Below are positions 1 to 64,000 of a stretch of DNA of 64,000 nucleotides, piece after piece. Both the position numbers and the translations under genes were made by a program. Below the pieces are notes generated by a model. That model ran no database searches and was not told where the DNA came from. It saw only the letters and a list, made by a program, of their open reading frames with translations. Within the stretch, counting starts at the first letter, position 1; every line of letters begins with the position of its first letter. The DNA comes from Diphasiastrum complanatum (Eukaryota > Streptophyta > Lycopodiopsida > Lycopodiales > Lycopodiaceae). The stretch is from the NCBI GenBank assembly GCA_029204225.1, contig CM055104.1, positions 27,643,253 to 27,707,252 on the forward strand, written 5' to 3'.

Positions 1-1601
1 AAAGATCCCATAGTGAAAGATACAAATCAGATTGGATCTCAGCAAAGCATAACTGATTAATCTCTCCAATCTGGCTCAAGGCATCGGCAACACAGTTCGA
101 CGTACCTTTACGATACTTAATGTCAAAGACAAACTCCTGAATGAGTTCCGACCATCTAGCCTTACGGCCACGAAGGTCCTTAGCATCACATATATACTTA
201 AGGGATTGGTGATCAGTCATTACCATAAATCTGGCACCATAAAGATAATGCCTCCAGATTTTAATGCGTGAATGACTGCAAAAAGCTCCTTCTCATAAGT
301 AGAATACCTAGTTTGAGCAGGGTCCAGCTTCTTGCTTTCAAAAGCAACTGGTCTACCATCCTGATAAAGGACCGCTCCAACAGCAAAGTCGCTAGCATCT
401 GTATCAACCACAAAGGGGTGATTAGGATTGACAATGTGTAAAATTGGAGCCGTAGAAACACAGTGTTTGAGAGTTTCAAAACTCTCATTCATTTCATCCG
501 TCCACATCATCAATGGACTTTTTTTGCGGCTACATTTTTTCTTCACCCCCTTAAGAACGTTCATCAAGGGCAATGCTATTAAGGCATAGTCCAAAATGAA
601 CCTGTGAAAGAATCCTGTGAAGCCCAAAAAGGATTTCACATCACGAATTGTCAAAGGTCTCGGCCATTCTCTCACCTTGCAGACTTTGTCATAATCGATT
701 TCAAGACCTTTATCCGATATGACATGGCCTAGGTATTTGAGTTCAGTTTGAAAGAACTCACATTTCAACTCCTTAGCATAGAGCTTTTCTTGTCTTAGAA
801 GATCTAAGACAATATGAAGATGATCTTCATGCTCCTCAAGGGTCCGACTATAAATCAATATGTCGTCCAAATACACCACCACAAACTTTCATAGATATGG
901 ACGAAGAATATCGTTCATCATCTGCTGGAAAGTGGCAGGCGCATTCGTGAGTCCAAAAGGTAACACTAAAAACATATAATGGCCATATCTGGATCGAGAT
1001 CCAGTCTTAGGAACATCTTTGTTCCTAATCCTTATCTGATGGTATCCTGATCTAAGATCAATCTTGGAGAAATACTTAGCCCCATTCAGACGATCCATAA
1101 GATCATCCATCCTAGGTAAGGGATATCTGTTTTTGATGGTCAAATCATTTAACTTTTTAAAGTCACCACACAAACGTGCGCCGCCATCCTTTTTACTAAC
1201 TAAAAGGATTGGTGCTCCCCAAGGGGACTTACTAGGTCATATGTGGCCCATCTTAAGGAGTTCTTGTAACTGCTTAGAAATTTCATCCTCTTCCTTGATG
1301 CTAACCCTGTATGGAAAAAGAGATACAGGTTGGCTACCAAGAAGCAACTCTATATGATGGTCAACACTCCTTTGGGGAGGTAGGCCATACGGGAGTTTAA
1401 CATCGCTATAATTTTGCCTAAGTTTGTTAAATATTATTCCTTCAGGTGAGTTAACACTTAAGGGATTATTTTCAGACACATTCAAAGGCCAATGCGATAA
1501 ATCAATATTTAGGCTCTGGACTGCATGGTCATCCACATAAATTTCATCTTTTAAAAAACAAAGATAAACTTTATTACCAGAATATTTCAACAATGTGAGA
1601 C
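1..1601 (-). pseudogene. Gyp1 pol: reverse transcriptase and RNase H, broken
   Basis: This is the distal half of a Ty3/gypsy polyprotein, which copies element RNA into DNA in cytoplasmic particles. Read on the minus strand it has a pre-RT linker (1601-1300), the KMGHI stretch ending at 1240, RT motifs [27 protein letters not shown] and [13 protein letters not shown], the catalytic YLDD near 873-862, LGFTGFFHRF, and RNase H motifs DTDASDFAVGAVL and TDHQSLKYI. Three breaks are visible: an in-frame TGA at 1237-1239, an in-frame TGA at 889-891 just before the YLDD block, and loss of one base in the A run at 259-262 inside RNase H. The window edge cuts it before integrase. Its gag-protease half is at 8444-9810 on the other strand. 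Confidence 0.93.
1591..1601. other. Inversion junction 1 (11-bp microhomology)
   Basis: The 11 bases CAATGTGAGAC belong both to the Gyp1 pol sequence on the left and to the NA-B LTR on the right. The same 11 bases occur inside the intact NA-B LTR at 5360-5370. Left of this point the sequence is Gyp1; right of it, it follows the LTR from 5371 onward. The partner junction is at 9810/9811. Confidence 0.8.
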
Positions 1602-1842
1602 TCCAATCTTGGTTTTGGAAGCAATTTTGAGTGATTCTCTCCATTTGTCTACATTTGTTTTGATTGTTTTGAGGTTCTATCAATGTGTACTTGATTTTCA
1701 GGTTGGAGTCCGTACCCTGACAGGGTTTCACACGTGTGAAACCAGCAAGTACATTTACCTTCAATAAATGATTGTTCTTGTTTGGATTTTATGTCTAGAA
1801 TTGATCTAGATTGATCTTAATCTTATGTAGATTGATAGATCA
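1602..1842 (+). repeat. NA-B 5' LTR, 3' portion
   Basis: It matches 5371-5611 of the intact 3' LTR almost base for base and ends in ATCA. It carries the 20-bp perfect palindrome GGTTTCACACGTGTGAAACC at 1724-1743, centred on a CACGTG (G-box) core. Because it starts in mid-LTR at the Gyp1 microhomology, it is a rearranged fragment and not a whole LTR. Confidence 0.85.
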
Positions 1843-3411
1843 AGTTGGATTTGATAGCTATCCTCAAAATTTTTGGTCCAAATCTTGTTGTGGGCTGTAG
1901 GAACCCTTTTCACACATGTGAGGCCGTACAGCTCCGGTTTTGACTGAGAAATTTCAAAAATTTGTAGAATTTGACTCGCATACCCAATTTGATTGATTTT
2001 TGGTGCGAAATCAAGCATTTTCTATAGAAAATCTAATCCCTTGATTAGTTCTTGGATAAGATCAGCCAAAAAATTAAAATTGAAGCTTGAAATAGGTGCA
2101 TTAATTGATCTTCTCTGATTTTTTGAGTGTATGTTGTAGTTGAGAGATTTTGCTAAAAATCATAGATTAAGGAGTGATATGCAAGGTGAGAGGTTGAAAT
2201 CCATTGTACCATCACTCTAGATTTGTTCAAGAGTGATAGGGTCAAGTTTAGAAGCATCAATTTGCTAGAAAACATCCTTGGATCTGTCCTCCAAGTGAAA
2301 CCTTTGAGAGTTTCTAGTGCATATAGAGCACCTATGCAAATCTTTTGTAGAATTTGACATAGATTGGCTTAAATTGAGAGTTCTAGAAAAGAGATTGAGA
2401 TCCAAGTCACATTGTTCAACCCTACTCAATTTGTTTGAGTGATTGTAAGGTTTGAAAAGAGTCATTAAGGTGTCTATGGAAAATGTGTAGAGAGAGATCC
2501 AATTTTCTAAGGAGTTCCTTCCTTTGTAGAGGGCAAGATCTAGAAGCTCATTTTGTGTTGTTATTGGTGGAGAGTTTGTCTTCTCCTAAGTGATCAAATC
2601 TTTCTAAGTGGCATTAGCTCTTTGAAGCACAATATCTTAGTGAGAAAAATCACAACTTTTTATTTTGAATTTCATTCCGAGTCTTAAAAAGTAGAGTAAT
2701 TGGTGGAATCCAATAGGAGTGATTGAATTCAATTTGTTGAGCAAAAATTGACTTAGAATGTATGAAGCTCAAATTAGTTCTATTCAACTTTCTTTGTGAG
2801 AGTGTGAGGGTCAATTTGTGATCCCATTGGATGTCTAGAATGAGGAGGAGTCCATATTTGAGTATTCATGCATGGTTGAGATCTTTGTGAATCTCTAGTT
2901 GTCTAATTTTTTAGCTTTGTGAAAAATTGGTGGTATAGTTTGATTTCAAATCAAATCAAATTCATTCTAAATCTCAAGAGTGAGATTATTTGGGTCAAGA
3001 GTGAGTCTAAAAGAAGTGATTAAGTTTGATTTTCATGTGTTTGAGACAAAATCCATCTTTTGTTCAAGAATCTCAAGTGTTGAGAGAACTAGTCAAGTGA
3101 AAAGGAGAATCTAAGTGTCAAATCTTTTTCATATCCATTTCAACTTTCAAAAGAAAGAGTCATTGGTATTTGATGAGTCCAATAAGACATTGGATCTGAT
3201 TTCTTTAGTGATTTGATTCAAAGATTGTGTGCTTTTGTCTTAGTGATCAAAGCAAAGTTTCCAAGTGACTAGTCTTTACTGTGAAGATTGATTCTTAGGT
3301 TTGTGAGCTAGATCTTTTGTAGATCCTTCTAGATTGTTGAAGATGTTCAAATCTAGTCTCTTCAAAGTCACAAATTACATTTGTAGAATCATATCACAGG
3401 TTTTTATTCAC
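1843..3411 (+). other. NA-B leader, no coding region seen
   Basis: This is 1.57 kb of AT-rich sequence between the LTR fragment and the NA-B ORF. It is full of stops in all frames and of short recurring words such as AAGTGATTGAATTTGATT. A CACATGTG element (1911-1918) resembles the LTR palindrome. No gene, tRNA or hairpin of note was found. Confidence 0.6.
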
Positions 3412-4713
3412 ATGGCATCAATAGGTGGCATCCTAGTGAAGGAAAGAAAGAATCCTGAGTGCAACCTTTGTGGCAAGGGAGGATAATTTTTCTCAAGATG
3501 CTACAAAAAGAAGACCAATCCATCCGAGGAGAACCAAAGCAAGGGGGCCGAGGTGAAGGAGGGAGCTTCAAGTTTAAAATGCAAATACAAGAAGGACAAG
3601 TCCAAGGAAAGGTGTTTCCTTTGTGGAAAGGTGAATGAGGCTTGGAGTCCCACAAGGACTTGCAAGATTTATCTTCAAGAGTCCATCACAACACATGTCA
3701 AATCTTTTGAAATTTTTCATTTGGAAGTGCATTGTTTGGTTCAAGATGCAAAGATAGATGTCACTTTCATGAAAGTAACTTGGATCTATTTTATGTCCTT
3801 GGAAAGTATTTTGCTTGGAACTTTGGACAAGTTCAAACTTATTGTTATTATCCAAGAGAAATCAATCAAGAATAAGGAGCAATCACAAAATGAAAATAGT
3901 TTCATTTATGCTCTCATGTCAACTTATGAAGATCTATTTTGCTTTGAAGGGATTTTTGTATCTCAAAGGTGGCTTAAGGCAATACTAGTTGAGTGTGATG
4001 CCTTAAAGTATAGCAAAGCATGTTTTCCTTGTAAGCTTACATTAGTTATGAGGACAAGGAAATGGAAATATCTTCATAATGTAGGATCTTTTGGTTTCAA
4101 TAAGATCATGAATGATGTGTTCATTCATAAAGATGAAAATTGTAAGTTTTCAATCTTAAAGGCAAGTTGTAAACTTCTTATGAGAATAAGTGAAGCATCC
4201 AAAGTGGACACTTATATCCATAAGCAAGTAGTTAGCCTTATCGAGATGGAAATGCCTTTTGATTTCAATATTGGAAAAATCATGCCAAGTTGTGGTGATT
4301 TTTGGACTTATGTTTCTAGCATAAGTAATCTTGATAATCATAGGAAGTGCATATTGAATGGCCATACTTGTTGTGATCATTATGAGACATGGAGGTCTCG
4401 GTTTTCCATCAAGAAGGAGCATCATGAAGAGGATCTTAAGGAGCCATCTCAAGGTTCAAGTGTGCCAAGGATTGAGGAGGAGAGACCTTCTCAAGTTGTG
4501 ATTCCAAAAAGAAACTCAAGAAACATGGTTGAACCCATGTGGCTCAAATTTCAAGGGAAAGAGAAGCATATCTCATGTGAAGGAGCAAGCCTCAAGGTCA
4601 AGCATCTACATGAAAATTGGAAGGAATCAATTTTGGAGATGCTAGGATGGTGCAAAGCTCTCAAGTTCATCAAAGATGTCAACATCAAAGAAGCACCATC
4701 ATGGATATGGTAA
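3412..4713 (+). pseudogene. NA-B Gag-like ORF with two degenerate zinc knuckles
   Basis: The frame opens with ATG at 3412 and runs in one frame to 4713, interrupted by a single TAA near 3484-3486. Around that stop the residues C-N-L-C-G-K-G-G, stop, F-F-S-R-C sit in exactly the CX2CX4HX4C spacing, with the stop in the histidine position. A second degenerate knuckle (CFLCGK, then TRTCK) follows at about 3616-3665. This suggests the nucleocapsid end of a Gag. The remaining roughly 340 residues (Lys/Glu-rich, several Cys and Trp) match nothing I recognise and show no protease, integrase or RT motif. The ORF ends about 130 bp before the polypurine tract, which fits a single-gene non-autonomous element. 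Confidence 0.6.
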
Positions 4714-4844
4714 TTTCAGATCAACATCAAGCTCATTGGCTGATATTCACACCTTTTGAACTAGCAAAGACCAATTCAGCCCATGGAGTCAAGTTCAAGA
4801 TCATCATGTTTTCCATCAAGCTAGATTTACCAAGCTAGATTTTT

Positions 4845-4853
4845 GAGGAGGAG
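4845..4853 (+). promoter_or_regulatory. NA-B polypurine tract
   Basis: GAGGAGGAG directly abuts the TGTGAAAA start of the 3' LTR, the expected place for plus-strand DNA priming. It fixes the element orientation as plus. Confidence 0.75.
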
Positions 4854-5611
4854 TGTGAAAAATGCAAAAATAAGCTTGGTAGAGGCCAAAAATATTGTAT
4901 ATAGATAAACACACATGTGTGGAGCGTGTTCCCACGTGTGAAAATAGTGTACTTGTCATGTACCATAATCATATAGGTTGTACATATGATTTAATTCAAG
5001 TTCTAGTGGCTAAAAAGGCCAAAAACTAGTTTTCTAGACATATGACACATGGCATCAATCTATTGATTGCATGAGCCACATCCTTTGGTTAGGTGTCATA
5101 TCACATGTGTAGAGGACAACTCACATGTGTGGAATAAGCTAAAGTAGGAAAATTTTGACTTCTAGAATATTTCCAAGTAGATCTCCATATAGAAGGAAAA
5201 TGGACCAAAAGTGCTCAAAATAGAAGGTTTTGTCCAAGTGTCAATTTTGCATGATGAATCATCATATGACAAAGCACCTTCACACATGTGGGATCAGAGG
5301 GATGATCAGTACCACGAGCTCCCACTTATTGTATATATAGAGCCACATTTGGCTATAATCAATGTGAGACACCAATCTTGGTTTTGGAAGCAATTTTGAG
5401 TGATTCTCTCCATTTGTCTACATTTGTTTTGATTGTTTTGAGGTTCTATCAATGTGTACTTAATTTTCAGGTTGGAGTCCGTACCCTGACAGGGTTTCAC
5501 ACGTGTGAAACCAGCAAGTACATTTACCTTCAATAAATGATTGTTCTTGTTGGGATTTTATGTCTAGAATTGATCTAGATTGATCTTAATCTTATGTAGA
5601 TTGATAGATCA
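4854..5611 (+). repeat. NA-B 3' LTR (758 bp, intact)
   Basis: It begins TGTGAAAAATGC and ends GATAGATCA. The left edge is confirmed because the inverted copy at 10306 diverges at the same base. It contains several CACATGTG/CACGTG dyads (around 4911, 4935, 5104, 5131, 5283) and the 20-bp palindrome at 5493-5512. Bases 5351-5370 are absent from junction 2 of the split LTR. Confidence 0.85.
5493..5512. promoter_or_regulatory. Perfect palindrome with G-box core in NA-B LTR
   Basis: GGTTTCACACGTGTGAAACC equals its own reverse complement; the same 20 bases are at 1724-1743. The CACGTG core is the consensus bound by plant bZIP and bHLH factors. Its place in an LTR suggests a transcriptional element; this is inference. 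Confidence 0.5.
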
Positions 5612-6451
5612 AGTAAATCTAACATCCAATCCCTCTTGAGGATCAGATTAGGATCCACTCTTGGTCCTTTTTGTACTTTTTGCACAGATGACATTATTTT
5701 GAGTGGGAATCATCTAGATGGAATAAGAGAGTTCAAAATGGTAGATCTCGACCTATTGAACTTCATTCTAGGAATAGAAGTCATAAGAAGATTGTTAGCT
5801 TCATTTGTCAATCTAAGTATGCTACATCCATCCTAGATAGATTTGGAATGAAGAATTGTAAAGGCATTGAGACTCCAATGGAGCAACATGTAAAAGCATC
5901 TATTGATGGCGACGAAGCATCCTTTGAGGACATCACTCTATATAGAAGGCTTATATTGGCTCCTTGATATATTTGACTATAACTAGACCTGATCTTAGTT
6001 ATAGTCTTCGAAAATTAAGCCAATTCCTCCAAAGTCCTTTGGTATTACTTGGAAAAATCACCAAAAGAGTTCTTAGAACTAAGAATTTTGGCATATTGTA
6101 TAGAGGGACTAATCTTGGCTTAAGAGCCTATAGTGACTCGAATTTTGCAAGTGACAAAGTGGATCAAAAGTCAATAAGTGCATTTTCCACCTTATGTGAT
6201 GGAAGAGTATCATGGCGTTCCAAAAAGCAAGATACAATTTCCTTATCTTCCACAGAATCCGAGTATAAGGCCTTGACATCAACATGCAAGGAGGTCGTAT
6301 AGCTCAAGAGGCTATTGGTGGAGCTTCATGTCATTGAGGAGATGCCTATCATCTATTGTGACAACCAATCATCCCAATCACTTGCTACTAATCCTACATT
6401 CCATGCAAGGAGCAAGCACATCGAGATTTCTCATCATTTTGTGAGGGAGAA
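5612..6451 (+). pseudogene. Cop1: Ty1/copia RT C-terminus and RNase H fragment
   Basis: The fragment carries the RT DDIILSGN block at about 5689 (the residue before DD is T, not V), LNFILGIEV near 5757, the TRPDLSYSL motif near 5981, and RNase H motifs AYSDSNFASD, SWRSKKQDTISLSSTESEYKA, YCDNQSS and HARSKHIEISHHFVRE. The sequence between DDII and LNFILGIEV is shortened, and stops occur before 5964 and at 6300. The RNase H is cut at 6451 by the Gyp1 LTR, so Cop1 was the insertion target of Gyp1. The other end abuts the NA-B 3' LTR. Confidence 0.85.
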
Positions 6452-6965
6452 TGTTACGTACCCATAAGGGTACTCAACAGGAAACTTGAGGTGATGGTCT
6501 CAGTTATGGGACGGAACACTGATAGGTCTTTTGGTTGCCACGTGTCAATGTCTCATTGGCACGTGGTGACATTGTTATGGACCTGCGTCAGTGTGCACAA
6601 CTATCGCTTGTCGTTAGTCATGTGTGACTCCTATGGAGGGAGATGACCCACTTGGACTATGTATATAGAGGTGGATCTCCATGAGCTAGGTATTCATTCT
6701 CTCCTAGAGAATGAAGAGCTCTTCCACTGATGGTCAGGTCAGGACGAGTATCTAGGCCTCAGGATGTAGGTAGGTGAGGGTCGAGGGTAAGGCATGGTGG
6801 TATGGGACACCATGGCTTACATGAGATCCGAGCTTGTTTGATGGTAGTCTGTAGCTCTAGTGCACGAGGGTGAGGTGGCGGTACCTCTATGGTTGGGTGG
6901 AAACTTAGCGTTTGTCACTTGTTTGTACTTTAGCAATGACCGGCATGACGATGGGGATTCTAACA
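6452..6965 (+). repeat. Gyp1 5' LTR (514 bp)
   Basis: It starts TGTTACGTACCC inside Cop1 RNase H and ends GGGATTCTAACA two bases before a primer site, giving the usual TG...CA ends. The flanking bases GAGAA (6447-6451) are the expected target duplication, but the far LTR lies outside the window. Its leader and gag follow directly, tying it to Gyp1. Confidence 0.8.
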
Positions 6966-6967
6966 GT

Positions 6968-6980
6968 TGGTATCAGAGCC
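6968..6980 (+). promoter_or_regulatory. Gyp1 primer-binding site
   Basis: TGGTATCAGAGCC is complementary to the 3' end of plant initiator-methionine tRNA and follows the LTR after the dinucleotide GT. Confidence 0.88.
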
Positions 6981-8443
6981 ACCAATCATTGTGAATAAGG
7001 TGCAATCGCTCTAACTTTTGTTATTGGTTGGTTTGAGCTTTTAGCTGTTGTTTTTTAAGGCTTAGTTGATTTTGTTGAATCGATCTAAACAATTTTGCTT
7101 CTTGAATCGTCTCAATCTGAGGTCGTTTTGATTGAAAACAAACCACCTTTGCTAGCTACAGTGGTGGTAGTCGGTTTCTTTTGAATGTTTTACGATTTTT
7201 AAAGCTACAAATACCGATATCGTTTTTGGCCTTATTTTGAGCCTTGGAAGTCGAAGTTACAAAAAAAATTTGCCCAAAAAAAAAAAAATTTCCTCGGGCA
7301 CCCGCACGTCCGCACAGACCTGCGCGCCTGGCTGCTGATTCTGTTCCGTATAGTTTCAGAAAATTCTGTAACCGTTGTAGTTGCGGAACTCTCACACATC
7401 TGCATATTGGAGGAGTTTTATTAATCTTTAATAATTACGTTCACAAGTTCCTTCACTCTTGGTTGTAAAGGATTTCTGTACCTTGCAAGTACAATAATCT
7501 TGGATATGTTGAGAAAATTGTTAAAGCAAATTAAAGCTTTCGTTTTCTCAAAAAAAGTGGTAGAGCCTTTCTTTTTGCAATCTAAACCAAAGAGTTGAGG
7601 CCTTGTTTGGTTAAAGTGAACATGATTGAAAGTTCTTTGTATTTATAGTAAACTTTGAAATTTTGTTTCAAAGTTTACAAAGTTTTTTTTATATTGAGTT
7701 ATAAAACTTAGTCTCTAAGTTTGAACATAAAAGCTTTTCTAAACTTTCAATTTGCTTTAACTAAATTTTGAAGAAAGGGGAGAGATTAATAAAACAAAAG
7801 TACACAGTTGTACAACTGTACTTGCAGGTTGTACCTACTACAGGTACAGACCTGTGTACCCTTTTCTTCATTTTCTTAGCCTCTTTCTTGGGCTTAATCC
7901 TCCTCTTTGTAATCTTCCACATACACACCAAGAAAATTTGATAATTCCTTCATCCTTTTCTCTTTTGGGGAGGAAATTTGATGTTTTTTCCTCCACCTCC
8001 TCCTCATGAATGTATAGTTGTACCTGCACCTTTTCCTTTGCCTAAGGACAAGCCTTAGAGGAGACTTAGGTGTATCTTCAGGCCATAAGGCCATGAGGTC
8101 AAGGCGGTGAACCCAAAGTTGGTTGGGGACATGACCCAAGTGACCCTTGGGTGAGGTGGCGTAAAGAGGGTGGTGGCCATGTGAGTTGAGGGTAGGTGGA
8201 CCCCATAAGGGGATGCCACTTGTTTTAGGTGCCCATGTGCTTGCTAGGTGGCGACCATAAGGCTCGCCACTCGGCAAGGCCTTTTTAAGAAGGAAAAGAA
8301 GTGGGATGGGGGGTATAGGCTCCATTTCCATCATTGAGGTGCTTATTTTGGCTTAGTCTCCTTAAGTAGTGGTCTCAAGTTCTCTAAGTCCTTTTGTTGC
8401 GAAGCCCTTGCAGTTTTTTCTTTGCCTTCTTCCTTAGTGCGCC
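6981..8443 (+). other. Gyp1 leader, non-coding
   Basis: About 1.46 kb lies between the primer site and gag. A local GC-rich patch (7290-7335) and a 146-codon antisense ORF (8334-7894) are present, but that ORF has no recognisable domain. A 16-bp perfect palindrome ACAGTTGTACAACTGT is at 7804-7819, followed by the near-dyad GGTACAGACCTGTGTACC at 7843-7860. These could fold in the genomic RNA. Confidence 0.55.
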
Positions 8444-9810
8444 ATGGACCCTGTTATGCCCTCGGGTGAAAAACCGTCTTCATCACTTTCTCCTCCTGAT
8501 GTAGACACTAACCAGCTTGTTCAGGCCCTAAATATGCTGCAAAATCAAATTTTAGAAATGCAAGCCAAGCATGTCGCGGCCGAGCAAGAGTGGCGTTCTT
8601 CGACGCACTCGCGGTCCGTTGGCGCTTATCCAATGTTTAATCCGGAATTCTTTTCGGGTGAAAAGAAAGATCGGCTTCTCGATGTGGTATTGTCGTGGCT
8701 AGATCAATGGAATAGTCATTTTTCCATGCACAATGCACCTGATAGTACGAAGATCGCATCTGCTGTGACGTTTTTACGCAAAAAGGTGTTTACATGGTGG
8801 CAGGATCTTAAGGAGAGGGCTGCAGCCCCTTCTACATGGGACACCTTTCAAGAAGCCTTTAAATCGGCTTTTCTTCCAGTGTTGGATGATTTTGAACATT
8901 GGCGGTGTTTTGCCACCATGCAGATGAGTACTAGGCCGTTAGATGCCCATATCCAGGAATTCCAAGAAAATCTACCTCGATTCGCCTCGCGAATCGATGC
9001 TATTTTGTTAAAATTACATTTTATCTTGGGGCTTCCAAAGGAATTTTAGCTAGAAGTGCGGCGTAACCGTCCGCAGACAATCAAAGATGTGGTTCACTTT
9101 GCAAAAATCTTTGATGATGCTTATTTTGCCTCTCGCAAGGAGCAGGCTTTGCCCAAGGCTGAACAGAAAGAAAAGAAAATTTTCAAGAAGCGGGGCAGAG
9201 ACAAAACGGCGGACACCGGTTTCCAAGGTGGGAAAAAGCGCATCAAATTGGAGCGCGCCGACTAAGACAAGGCGAGAACCGGCGGGTTGTGCTTCTCCTG
9301 CATGGAGAAGGGGCATCTTTCAAAAGATTTCCCAAAGAAAAAGCAAAAGAAATCTGGCGGGCAATGTAAATCTTCTAAAGCGTCAGGTAATTCGAGTATT
9401 TCTTTTGTTGATTTATCCTTTAAAGCTGGCACTAGCTGCAAGAATTGTTATTTTAATACAGCTGTTTTTGACCCCCATGATCTCATTCATATGAATGGAG
9501 TTGTAGGACGCCAAGCTGTGACTATTCTATTTGATGATAGTTCCACACATAATTTCATAAATGCTAAACTGGTGCAGAAGTTCAGGGCGGCTACCGTGCC
9601 AAGTAATCACTTGTATGTGGTAAAAATGGCGTCGGGGGAAGATCGACAAGCTTGGGATCAACTTGTCCCTCAGCTGCCGCTTCAAATCCAAGATTATGTT
9701 GAACCGCGAGATTTTCATATTATGAACTTGGATAGTGTAGACATAATCTTAGGAAAAGAATGCTTTTATTCCAAAAACGAGCCTTTAAGAAAAGATTATG
9801 TTACTCATAG
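8444..9810 (+). pseudogene. Gyp1 gag and protease, broken
   Basis: The frame starts at ATG 8444. It has a Gag capsid region (PMFNPEFFSGEKKD; FLRKKVFTWWQDL; TWDTFQEAFKSAF), a zinc knuckle at about 9287-9330 (CFSCMEKGHLSKDF, in which the fourth ligand Cys is replaced by Phe), and a retropepsin-like region at about 9500-9770 (FDDSSTHNFI where gypsy proteases normally have DSGSTHNFI; DIILGKECFYSKNEPL). In-frame stops are TAG at 9047-9049 and TAA at 9263-9265; all segments stay in one frame. The coding region stops abruptly at 9810 after DYVTHS. The continuation, starting LTLLKYSGNKVYL, is on the minus strand at 1601, so the two halves are one element split by inversion. Confidence 0.93.
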
Positions 9811-9811
9811 T
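9810..9811. other. Inversion junction 2
   Basis: Gyp1 protease sequence (ending ACTCATAG) meets inverted NA-B LTR (AAATGTGGCTC). Relative to a clean reciprocal exchange about 20 bp is missing here, consistent with end trimming during repair. Confidence 0.75.
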
Positions 9812-10306
9812 AAATGTGGCTCTATATATACAATAAGTGGGAGCTCGTGGTACTGATCATCCCTCTGATCCCACATGTGTGAAGGTGCTTTGTCATATGA
9901 TGATTCATCATGCAAAACTGACACTTGGACAAAACCTTCTATTTTGAGCACTTTTGGTCCATTTTCCTTCTATATGGAGATCTACTTGGAAATCTTCTAG
10001 AAGTCAAAATTCGCCTACTTCAGCTTATTCCACACATGTGAGTTGTCCTCTACACATGTGATATGACACCTAACCAAAGGATGTGGTTCATGCAATCAAT
10101 AGATTGATGCCATGTGTCATATGTCTAGAAAACTAGTTTTTGGCCTTTTTAGCCACTAGAACTTGAATTAAATCATATGTACAACCTATATGATTATGGT
10201 ACATGACAAGTACACTATTTTCACACGTGGGAACAGGATCCACACGTGTGTTTATCTATATACAAGATTTTTGGCCTCTACCAAGCTTATTTTTGCATTT
10301 TTCACA
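9812..10306 (-). repeat. NA-B 5' LTR, 5' portion, inverted
   Basis: It is the reverse complement of 4854-5350. It begins (minus strand) at 10306 with TGTGAAAA and stops at 9812, where Gyp1 gag-protease takes over. Together with 1602-1842 it makes one complete LTR apart from about 20 bp (equivalent to 5351-5370), of which 11 bp survive as the microhomology at 1591-1601. Confidence 0.85.
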
Positions 10307-11026
10307 TCATCAACATACAATACAAGGATAATGATCTTTCCATCGTGAAATATTATGTACAATGATGGATAGCTATCTTGTCTAATTTTGGATCAAAAGA
10401 GATCAATAGGGCATTGATTGGGTTTGACCTGGTACTGTACGGAATCAGGTGCTCTGACACGTGTGAGGAACATCCAATTTTAGATTGAGAGTTCTCTCTC
10501 ATGCTTGATCCATTTATCTTGCTTGATAGCTTTGTTGAAGCTATTTTTGTCTAGTTTTTGATGCAATCAGTTTCATTCCATTTGGTTGAGCCAATAAGAA
10601 GTTATAAGCTTTTGAAGAGGGTTAGGTAGGGCACCTAGACCTGGGTGGACACATTTGGTTTGGTCAAGAGATTGCTTGTTAGATCTCTGTTCACAATTGT
10701 ATGGTTACTAATCTCATCTATAAGTGATCTAGACATTGTTTTGAGATCATAGCCAATTTGTTTCATGCAATATCATTGAGTTTGAGTCAAATTTGGTTAC
10801 TTAGTGTATTTCACACATGCTAAGAGTAAATAATCCTAACTTTGTCTATAGTCCATCATTTGATGTGAAATAGATCTTGTTTTAGAGAGATTTGAGTAGC
10901 TAGTGAGAATCAATTCACAAATAGTTGCAAGATCTTCCATAGGATGAGATAGTACTTCATTATTGGATCCTATTGAGAGTGTGTAGCAACATTTATTGTT
11001 CATCATTTGAGTTTTCTTCACTTCAA
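10307..11026 (+). other. Cop2 upstream region or leader
   Basis: 720 bp lie between the NA-B LTR start and Cop2 gag, with no ORF of note. Words such as GGTAGGGCACC and TGGACAC also occur (inverted) near 26350-26400, suggesting a shared leader with the LTR-C family. A GACACGTGTGAGG dyad lies near 10456-10468. No LTR or primer site is clear. Confidence 0.45.
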
Positions 11027-53997: not shown

Positions 53998-54640
53998 ACA
54001 ATCCCTTTGCCTTTGTCTTGCATATGTGTGTCGGAGATGGTGTCTTCGTCATCCGTGGATGTAGAGCTCTTTGGCTTCTGAAAAGACCCAACTGTGACTG
54101 GGACAAACAAACAAAGTGTCGAGCATAGTGGAAGGTTCAGGTATAGTTTGTGCAACAACATCCGACTTTGTTTCCTTCGGGACTTCTGCTATGTCGACCT
54201 CCATGGCTACAGTAGTTGTTGGCTGTTTTCATAAGCCACTTTGCTTTGTTTCAGTAAGTATGCCGAAGTGTTCGCACAGTCATGAGATGTGTACTCCCAC
54301 TGCAGCATATTTTTTGTGCTTTATCGAGCATAGAAATGCTTTGTAGGCAATGGTTCCAAAGCAAACTAGCTGGCCTGCCAATGCATCCACCAAGTATCCA
54401 AAATTCTGAGTTGAAATATTGGCATCAACATCAGTGATAAACAATACTTGATTGAAATACTTGCAGAAGAACTTCAATTGCACATCCTTCACCATCGTGA
54501 TTTTGTACCCTTTGCTTGGTACATAACAATTTGACAAAAAATATGTCGCATCATCAATGGAGTACTCTTTGGACGTTGGGTTGGATGCTCCATTGGTTGG
54601 CAGTCCAAGAGCTTCAGAGAAAACCGCTTGAAACAATTTT
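53998..54640 (-). pseudogene. En/Spm-2 second ORF, N-terminal part
   Basis: Collinear with 18207-18830: FSEALGLP, YFLSNCYVPSKGYKITMVKD, STQNFGYLVDALAGQ and the acidic STSTDDEDTISDTHMQDKGK segment, which is cut by the Cop4 LTR. The coiled-coil half seen in En/Spm-1 is missing. At about 54640 it is joined to TNP2 sequence in a different place from that in En/Spm-1. Confidence 0.75.
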
Positions 54641-61865: not shown

Positions 61866-62996
61866 TCACCCTGAGAGCCATCCTCCATAACAATGCTCAT
61901 ATGGTGTGTTTGCAGCTCCTGCTGCTGCTGCTGCAGAACAACAGGGAGAACCAGTGAAGCGATCATTCTTCTTATACAGATTGCTGCCGACGCCATCCGG
62001 AAGCGAATTCAATATTGGCAGCTGCATGATACTGTTCAACGCATGATGATGACCATGCCCCAAGATTTTTGTAGATTCTGAAGAACAAGTGCCAAAAGAA
62101 GTTTGAAGGCGCTGTTTTGCTTTAGCGAGGTTTGATACTGTGGTTGCCTCAGCATCCCTTATTTCATCACAAGCTCCAGTGATGAGATTAATGATGTATG
62201 TCTTACCAACAGTATGCTTACATCTCTTGCTCTCTGCGTCGCTGCTGCTCCAGCTGCCACTCTTACTGCGTTTCAAGTTGTTGCAGTTTTTTAAGTTGGA
62301 TGTAACTGCATGCAGGTTAAATAAATTAGAAGAATCCCCTTTTGGGATTTTGGCGGAGAGTGATTCTGATCTCAAGGAAGCGTGTCCCTTATTGCCACCA
62401 ATATCCACATTGCAGCTGCATTCTGTGCTAGACTTCTTATCATCTTTCTGCCCTGATGTAGCCGTACCGCGGAAAGCCAATTCGTCCAAGAAATTCGTCT
62501 TCTCTGCATTGCACCTTGATATTTTGGATGCGGGATCTAAAACCAGGTGATGTGGAACCCTTTTCTTTTCCGGACCGAGAAGACTATCAGCTTTGTGGAC
62601 AGGCCGGCCTCTGAGGCTACCATCCATATTGCAGCTACATTCATCAGGAGGATTTGTGTCATTTTTGCCATTGAAAATCAGTTGTGTATAAGAAAAACTG
62701 CTATTGCCTCTTGGTGACAATCCAGATGAGCTTTGATTTTCATGCAATCGAGCTTGAAGATTGAAGTCCATCAGCTCTGCATGCGAACCTCTAGGGTTTT
62801 CCTGCTTTCCTGTTGCATGCTTTTGCTTCACATACACCTCCTGATCGCAGTCAGTACAAGGGGCTTTGCCAGACATATTCTCAATCATGCTAAACTTTTG
62901 CTCTTTAACCTGTCCGACAATCATAGGATCTGAATTTTTCTTGAGTACTGTTGACACATCAATTTGCATGATGGGTGTGGATGTGGATGTACACAT
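61866..62996 (-). CDS. Putative host gene, 376-aa Ser/Asn/Cys-rich protein of unknown function
   Basis: An uninterrupted frame from ATG 62996 to 61866 has higher GC than the surrounding repeats. I do not recognise the protein. It is hydrophilic and probably disordered, with no signal peptide or membrane segment. Two Cys-rich repeats of similar form occur: ECSCNMDGSLRGRPVHKADS (about residues 116-135) and ECSCNVDIGGNKGHASLRSE (about 191-210), plus an N-terminal CTDCDQEVY. A basic patch (ESKRCKHTVGK) precedes YIINLITGACDEIRDAEAT and a short helix NLAKAKQRLQ. An alanine run coded by a GCA repeat (SAAAAAGAA) lies near the C-terminus. There is no transposon motif. A GTAAGTAA donor-like site at 63088-63081 just upstream hints at an intron before or in the 5' part, so further exons are possible. 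Confidence 0.6.
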   Translation of the reverse strand: MCTSTSTPIMQIDVSTVLKKNSDPMIVGQVKEQKFSMIENMSGKAPCTDCDQEVYVKQKHATGKQENPRGSHAELMDFNLQARLHENQSSSGLSPRGNSSFSYTQLIFNGKNDTNPPDECSCNMDGSLRGRPVHKADSLLGPEKKRVPHHLVLDPASKISRCNAEKTNFLDELAFRGTATSGQKDDKKSSTECSCNVDIGGNKGHASLRSESLSAKIPKGDSSNLFNLHAVTSNLKNCNNLKRSKSGSWSSSDAESKRCKHTVGKTYIINLITGACDEIRDAEATTVSNLAKAKQRLQTSFGTCSSESTKILGHGHHHALNSIMQLPILNSLPDGVGSNLYKKNDRFTGSPCCSAAAAAGAANTPYEHCYGGWLSG

Positions 62997-63420
62997 GATT
63001 GCAGTGCTTCTTCTTGATAAGAGTATATTGTCTATCTGTCTGTACCGATACAGAGAGAAGCAGCAGGCGAAGTGAGCTGATTACTTACCCACCAACAGGC
63101 AGACTTGTATTCCTGCCACCTGAAATAAAGTTTCATCCGCTTGACTCCAGCAGCAGCAGGAGGAGAAAAAATGGATGGCTGAGGGAGGGTATGCTCTCCT
63201 CTTTGTCCTTGGCTTGATCCAAACGATATTCAGCTCCGCTCCGATTCCCGACGATGATGATGCGAGGCGAGAGGAGAGCAGAGGAGTGAGGCAACGCGAA
63301 GCAAAGCAGAGCAGATGTGAGAAATAAAATGAGCAGGAGTATTTTATTTGAGAAATAAACCACGTGCGAATTGAAAAGCGCGACCATGTGACCTAATAAA
63401 ATAGCTTCCAACATCTATTT
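62997..63420 (-). promoter_or_regulatory. Upstream region or 5' exon of the putative host gene
   Basis: GC-richer, CT-rich on the minus strand (TCTGCTCTCCTCTCGCCTCG, 63282-63263), like a plant 5' untranslated region. Candidate splice donor GTAAGTAA at 63088-63081. The 93-codon minus-strand ORF at 63414-63133 is out of frame with the main ORF and may be chance or an upstream ORF. AAATAAAAT near 63350 is the only TATA-like stretch seen. Confidence 0.4.
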
Positions 63421-64000
63421 CCCCAACTAATATTTGGCCTCAAACTAAAATTCAACTCATTATCAAATGGTGATGACAATTTACTTTTCCTTTGCGAAAG
63501 TACTTTACTTTTGAACCATAAATGGATCTACACAAGATCCACAAGAGTGATTGGATGCTTTCTTAACAATCTATTGCAAAAACTAGACACACAAAATTGA
63601 TCTAGAATGGCAATTTTACATTCAACATGTAAGAACAATAAAAAAGCATTGCTCATTGATGAAATCCCAGTCCACACGTGTGAACCACAGCCTGATGTAC
63701 GACCTGAAGACAGAGAATGAGGGCAATATCACTTTGGTAGCATTTAGAACATACAAACGTGTAGTAGCTCGGGATTTGCCAATGAGCTCCAAAAGTTTTC
63801 TAAGTCCTCACTATGGGAGGATGGAATACATACCAAAAGCCTTCTCCTTTGTAAAGTTAGGCCCGGAATTTCCAGCACGTAATAAGGAATTTAACTTGGA
63901 TTTCTTCACTAATTTGCCACTCTAGCCTCATTCCTAGAGTCTCCTCCTAATGGGAGCAAGCCAGGGAAGTTCAGTCTTAAATAGTCCTCTCTCTCCTAAG
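63421..64000. other. Interval without recognised genes
   Basis: AT-rich. An 89-codon plus-strand ORF (63656-63925) has no recognisable domain. A CCACACGTGTGAACC dyad at 63672-63686 resembles those of the NA-B and LTR-C families, so this may be the edge of another such element. Confidence 0.4.

Follow-up and report, generated by a model that had tools for sequence, protein, structure and literature searches.

In this study, we analysed an inversion of 8.2 kb in a nest of long terminal repeat (LTR) retrotransposons of Diphasiastrum complanatum, in a stretch of 64,000 nucleotides on contig CM055104.1 (C13:27643253-27707252), hereafter the window. With flanks of 30 kb on the left and 20 kb on the right the analysed sequence amounts to 114 kb, without any N runs, and positions are given in window numbering, negative to the left and above 64000 to the right. 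The searched genome comprises 1.74 Gb in 5176 contigs; the matches considered are the best-scoring candidates only, and statements that a match is unique, or the only one, apply among the matches listed. The elements concerned are Gyp1 (Ty3/gypsy), Cop1 (Ty1/copia) and NA-B, a putatively non-autonomous LTR retrotransposon, and the unit of the window that carries the inversion, A, could be compared with a paralogue some 57-65 kb further right, locus B.

Organisation of the locus

The inversion is present in the assembly. An inversion of about 8.2 kb between 1591 and 9811 had been put forward in the original prediction, and it is borne out by the opposite orientation of the two copies of the NA-B target site, by the reading frame of Cop1, by the uninverted order at the NA-B-free locus B and by the orientation of most other Cop1 copies on C13. 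From left to right, the locus is composed as follows (RT, reverse transcriptase).

1-1590, minus strand: Gyp1 RT-RNase H part, closing on the right a 13-kb block with a near-identical counterpart at local 53999-66982; RVT_1 and RT_RNaseH Pfam matches for 220-885
1590/1591, no strand: junction 1, with the Gyp1 RT region (minus) on the left and the NA-B 5' LTR on the right; the homologies abut without overlap, 0 bp shared
1591-9811, no strand: inverted segment, 8.2 kb, defined by the target-site duplication orientation and the order at locus B
1591-1845, plus strand: NA-B 5' LTR, right piece, its 3' part shortened by a deletion at 1845/1846
1846-4853, plus strand: NA-B internal region, with an open frame of 408 amino acids (stop to stop) at 3487-4713
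4854-5686, plus strand: NA-B 3' LTR, full length, 833 bp, TGTG...CACA
5687-5691, plus strand: target-site duplication GATGA after the 3' LTR, corresponding to local 70474-70478 in the NA-B-free locus B
5687-6451, plus strand: Cop1 RT-RNase H part, turned with the segment, 97% identical to 70478-69710
6452-6966, plus strand: Gyp1 5' LTR, inserted in the Cop1 RNase H; of 42 scored matches, only the window's own crosses this join
6967-9811, plus strand: Gyp1 leader, gag and protease; Retrotrans_gag exactly at the Pfam cut-off, RVP_2 above the cut-off
9811/9812, no strand: junction 2, the Gyp1 protease end (plus) against the inverted 5' LTR piece, 1 bp (A) shared
9812-10306, minus strand: NA-B 5' LTR, left piece, outside the inverted segment
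10307-10311, minus strand: target-site duplication, TCATC on the plus and GATGA on the minus strand, before the 5' LTR start
10307-10370, minus strand: Cop1 RT upstream part, reading up to YVD, with its partner IILSG from about 5692

Evidence for the inversion

The decisive evidence is the target-site duplication of NA-B, which is stronger than the split halves of Gyp1 and of the LTR. GATGA at 5687-5691 and TCATC at 10307-10311 come into register only when 1591-9811 is reversed. NA-B itself carries the marks of an LTR-retrotransposon insertion, namely TG...CA ends, two LTRs, a 5-bp target-site duplication and an insertion-free paralogue. In this paralogue, locus B (66982-70537), NA-B is missing and Cop1 continues from one piece directly into the other, the overlap between the two matches being precisely the 5-bp target site; the Gyp1 gag-protease and Cop1 stand in uninverted order there. 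Likewise, the Cop1 RT frame runs as ...LVLYVD to 10307 on the minus strand and continues as IILSGNH... from about 5692 on the plus strand, which we take to be the two sides of the YVDD motif. Ten of the 13 other Cop1 matches on C13, locus B included, lie on the minus strand, in contrast to the plus orientation of the piece at 5687-6451.

The two NA-B LTR pieces had been predicted to make up one LTR, and this holds. They are complementary parts, and their divergence from the 3' LTR is nearly equal, as expected for one LTR, with 3/255 and 9/495 substitutions (Fisher p = 0.76). The end assigned to this LTR at 1842 was misplaced: the NA-B LTR is the 833-bp sequence at 4854-5686, an extent which three of seven other NA-B loci match over the whole length and a fourth to within 2 bp, and the 5' LTR has undergone an additional deletion of about 181-183 bp at 1845/1846. 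An origin of the two pieces from two different NA-B insertions was considered because AGTAA, which follows 5611, does not match GATGA, but it was rejected, since the real end of the LTR is 5686 and the target-site duplication then fits.

The deletion at 1845/1846 took the end of the NA-B 5' LTR together with the start of the leader, and one locus on another contig (L002, C7) appears to share it, as if the deletion form had been copied.

Junction sequences

Both joins are spanned by the window alone. For query 900-1650, 39 of 40 matches, all but the window's own, start at query base 61 or higher, i.e. at 1590 or leftward, where the minus-strand homology of Gyp1 ends. LTR homology begins at 1591, and only one of 43 matches to query 1500-1900, again the window's own, extends to the left of query base 92. 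At the other side, the gag-protease homology of Gyp1 ends at about 9812, with the window as the only one of 40 matches to query 9200-10500 that passes 9815. With the target-site duplication, the continuity of Cop1 and the order at locus B, the segment is seen to lie the other way round from its flanks, and both of its junctions are known. Its outer neighbours differ in that the right side is original, comprising Cop1 and the target-site duplication, and the left flank is a near-identical, or homogenised, copy of locus B. Similarly, none of the 42 Cop1 matches but the window's own reaches to the left of 5686 or to the right of 6454, so that no other scored copy has the NA-B insertion or the Gyp1 5' LTR insertion of the window.

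Comparison with uninterrupted copies gives the losses at the two joins. Between the points matching 9812 and 1590, locus B and seven of eight other fetched Gyp1 copies have exactly 95 bp, which are lost here, while the eighth (L037) has about 97 bp. From the LTR, 9 bp were lost between 5350 and 5360, and not about 20 bp as had been assumed for the second junction; six of seven other NA-B loci have a 9-bp stretch at this point, followed by the 11-mer CAATGTGAGAC, L002 being without an exact 11-mer. With 0 and 1 bp in common at the joins and small losses of about 95 and 9 bp, the junctions fit two breaks closed by end joining.

Origin of the Gyp1 halves

It had been proposed that a single Gyp1 was split exactly in two between protease and RT. 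Homology does stop at both points, yet 95 bp are missing between them, and the RT half is a near-identical copy of the Gyp1 at locus B. To the left, Gyp1 homology stops at -1456, at the end of the internal region, and Cop1-LTR sequence is next. The expectation that Cop1 RNase H would continue beyond a far Gyp1 LTR to the left of position 1 failed: in the 30 kb left of the window there is no Gyp1 LTR, and the tail of the Cop1 RNase H gave no match; nor was a sequence like the 5' LTR 6452-6966 detected elsewhere in the 114 kb. The 3' half adjoining junction 1 is an LTR-less copy of the B type, while a proper 5' LTR is present in the 5' half, 6452-9811. Among 40 matches listed, the Cop1 LTR-Gyp1 join occurs at two places, A and B.

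The gag-protease of the window is closest to B (96.75%, vs at most 95.21% for 26 other matches). A and B have 26 states in common which are absent from 19 other matches representing 15 places, seven of the 26 having been dropped with fewer than 1500 of 2153 bases aligned. As a control, the next pair of distinct places (L055 and L056) shares 16 states; two further pairs with high counts, 29 and 17 states, are each one place fetched twice. Gag-protease (7660-9811) and 5' LTR-leader (6452-7659) may represent one insertion, sister of the B Gyp1, or a recombinant of two.

At locus B, an LTR-less Gyp1 fragment of about 5.3 kb lies inside the Cop1 3' LTR, flanked by a direct duplication of 118 bp (69228-69345 and 63821-63937, 95.8% alike), which far exceeds the length of a retrotransposon target-site duplication and looks like the product of fill-in at a staggered break. 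The Cop1 LTR ends at this locus are marked by a polypurine tract and the primer site TGGTATCA. No Pfam match was found at E 0.01 for 61866-63077.

The near-identical 13-kb block

The sequence to the left of junction 1 belongs to a block, -11366 to 1590, which matches 53999-66982 over 12.99 kb with only 6 substitutions, or 7 if one at the extreme edge is counted, and with 7 differences in length, most of them within simple repeats. The two copies form a direct repeat (C13:27631886-27644842 and 27697251-27710234), and the last 691 bp before junction 1 are identical to B. Outside the block, A and B differ by 70/2152 substitutions (3.25%) in gag-protease, which sets the two regions far apart (Fisher p = 2e-51), and by 17 substitutions in a 770-column alignment of Cop1. 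To the left of the block, 133 substitutions were counted in 3862 columns (-17575 to -13718), in a pair that is 2.35 kb off in A and may consist of separate repeat copies. Given that the block is nearly identical to B while gag-protease differs by 3.25%, the left partner was either replaced recently by sequence copied from locus B or homogenised by the assembler.

Each end of the block coincides with a limit of homology, on the right at junction 1 and on the left at 53998, where B is cut. At the -11367 boundary, A and the other scored copies covering it read on, and B lacks this left continuation, which led us to reject B as the natural state at both block ends. Plain unequal crossing over was likewise discarded as a source of the block, since it predicts that 1591-53998 should recur almost unchanged left of -11366, and the 18.6 kb analysed there contain only repeats of parts of it at about 83-96% identity.

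Gene conversion between tandem repeat units typically leaves a long stretch much more alike than its surroundings. The block would resemble such a tract in being far more alike than its surroundings, a contrast which is clear on the right (6 in 12.99 kb vs 70/2152) and weaker on the left, with its possibly separate repeats; it differs in that both tract ends lie at homology limits, one of them being the inversion junction. The block is best explained by a gene conversion from B, which would have taken place after the inversion.

Discussion

We propose a model in which the RT gene of a Gyp1-bearing Cop1 was the target of an NA-B insertion in minus orientation, and in which one break would have occurred in Gyp1 between protease and RT and another in the NA-B 5' LTR. 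The 8.2-kb piece would then have been rejoined backwards by non-homologous end joining, whereby Gyp1 lost about 95 bp and the LTR 9 bp. Later, or in the same repair, 13 kb (-11366 to 1590) may have been overwritten from unit B, by a gene conversion reaching the homology limits on both sides. The order of events would accordingly run from an array duplication giving A and B over the insertion of NA-B into A (LTR difference 12/750) and the inversion to the homogenisation of the block with B (6/12990), where the last two possibly constitute one event; ages are relative only, expressed as substitution differences of 12/750 (LTR pairs), 3.25% (units) and about 0.05% (block). The reversal and the losses are read directly from comparison with other copies, from which we infer the two breaks and their end joining. 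An end-joining inversion within nested retrotransposons, followed or accompanied by the overwriting of 13 kb by B, is the best overall explanation and, in our judgement, a highly probable one.

Several points weigh against it. Three of the 13 other Cop1 matches on C13 lie on the plus strand. The 5' half of Gyp1 has its LTR in Cop1 RNase H, while the left half lacks a Gyp1 LTR and runs out into sequence of the Cop1 LTR, and with such different ends the halves as they stand are not one insertion. By sequence age, junction 1 no longer has its original left partner, considering the few substitutions in the block against those in gag-protease, which renders junction 1 less secure than junction 2. 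It should also be noted that the comparison covers a single assembly.

Alternatively, inversion and 13-kb copy could stem from one compound repair. After resection of the broken left end of A, 13 kb would have been copied from B, through gap repair or break-induced synthesis, and the freshly made end would have been ligated to the inverted fragment, so that inversion and copy would have the same, recent age. While the exact end of the block at junction 1 and the identity of its last 691 bp to B would be accounted for in this way, the left end of the block, with B cut at 53998, also lies at a homology limit, which equally fits a later conversion, and it would be coincidental for the copy to stop at a distance of just 95 bp from the point homologous to the other Gyp1 end; we consider this course of events, the common age included, unlikely. 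Slightly less likely still is that the block, and perhaps junction 1, was produced by the assembly, either by merging the reads of two units or by placing a haplotype copy twice. Six substitutions plus repeat-length differences in 13 kb do resemble allelic or consensus noise, and the block ends coincide with homology limits on both sides. However, there are no N runs, the neighbouring repeats at -17575 to -13718 with their 133 substitutions were kept apart, and neither junction 2 nor the reversed target-site duplication nor the loss from the LTR depends on the block.

The mechanism originally suggested, a microhomology-mediated inversion through the 11-mer shared in inverted orientation by the two partners, requires several bases common to both at the junction. 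In its favour stands the presence of CAATGTGAGAC at 1591-1601 and 5360-5370, its two sites in the 114 kb. Both sites are in the LTR, though, and the 11-mer is found in 0 of 44 Gyp1 loci on either strand (several places among these having been fetched twice) and is absent from locus B, and the partners share just 0 and 1 bp at the joins. Unless the broken Gyp1 copy had a private 11-mer, this origin can be set aside, and we give it very little credence. Even less credible is an inversion by homologous recombination between repeats in opposite orientation, such as the LTRs of NA-B: 4854-5350 and 9812-10306 do form an inverted repeat today, but the LTRs were direct repeats before the event and became inverted through it, and neither breakpoint lies within a repeat common to both partners.

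With end joining as the preferred reading, the event can be placed beside known systems. A study on deletion and inversion alleles induced by CRISPR (clustered regularly interspaced short palindromic repeats) in tandem arrays of Arabidopsis and rice describes inverted fragments lying between two induced breaks whose ends were blunt or staggered (PMC10600118), from which we infer that long homology is not needed for inversions of this type. As in these alleles, a kb-sized fragment of a tandem array was reversed between two breaks; unlike them, the inversion here arose naturally, its breaks fall in a gypsy element and in an LTR, and about 95 and 9 bp were lost. A study on wheat chromosome 2D reports breakpoint signatures of natural structural variants, namely four indels of more than 100 kb (PMC6097286). 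The approach is the same in that the mechanism, unequal crossing over vs double-strand-break repair, is read from the junction sequence, whereas the variant here is an inversion of 8.2 kb.

The age and the direction of small inversions within nested retrotransposons are often difficult to establish. In the present case, the original order follows from the target-site duplication together with a neighbouring unit that lacks the insertion, and the sequence lost at each junction is known from other copies. No function is apparent for the arrangement, which can be regarded as scar tissue in a retrotransposon nest. It is the result of a known, ordinary kind of event, well documented here, with the added puzzle of a block that ends exactly at the junction. 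The jump from about 0.05% to about 3% substitution difference at this junction represents a test case, either for a repair that couples template copying to end joining or for a pattern made by the assembly. Were the compound repair true, the locus would document, for a tandem array of a plant and under natural conditions, how a long template was copied from a unit some 65 kb off before the copied end was joined to the inverted fragment.

Additional features of the nest

Cop1 matches cluster at C13:25.6-27.7 Mb and are 93-97% like the window's copy (with one at 89% and a distant one at 66%), in comparison with 85-90% for the scored copies on other contigs; the closer similarity on C13 points to a tandem or segmental array. 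In a further Cop1 copy of this array, adjoining parts lie on opposite strands, C13:27338341-27338900 (minus) and 27339140-27339328 (plus), which is probably a second, much smaller inversion.

The open frame of 408 amino acids in NA-B gave no Pfam match at E 0.01. The polypurine tract and LTR start (GAGGAGGAGTGTGAAAAAT) are common to NA-B (4840-4865) and Cop1 (local 69570-69540), and NA-B may therefore be mobilised by Cop1-like elements.

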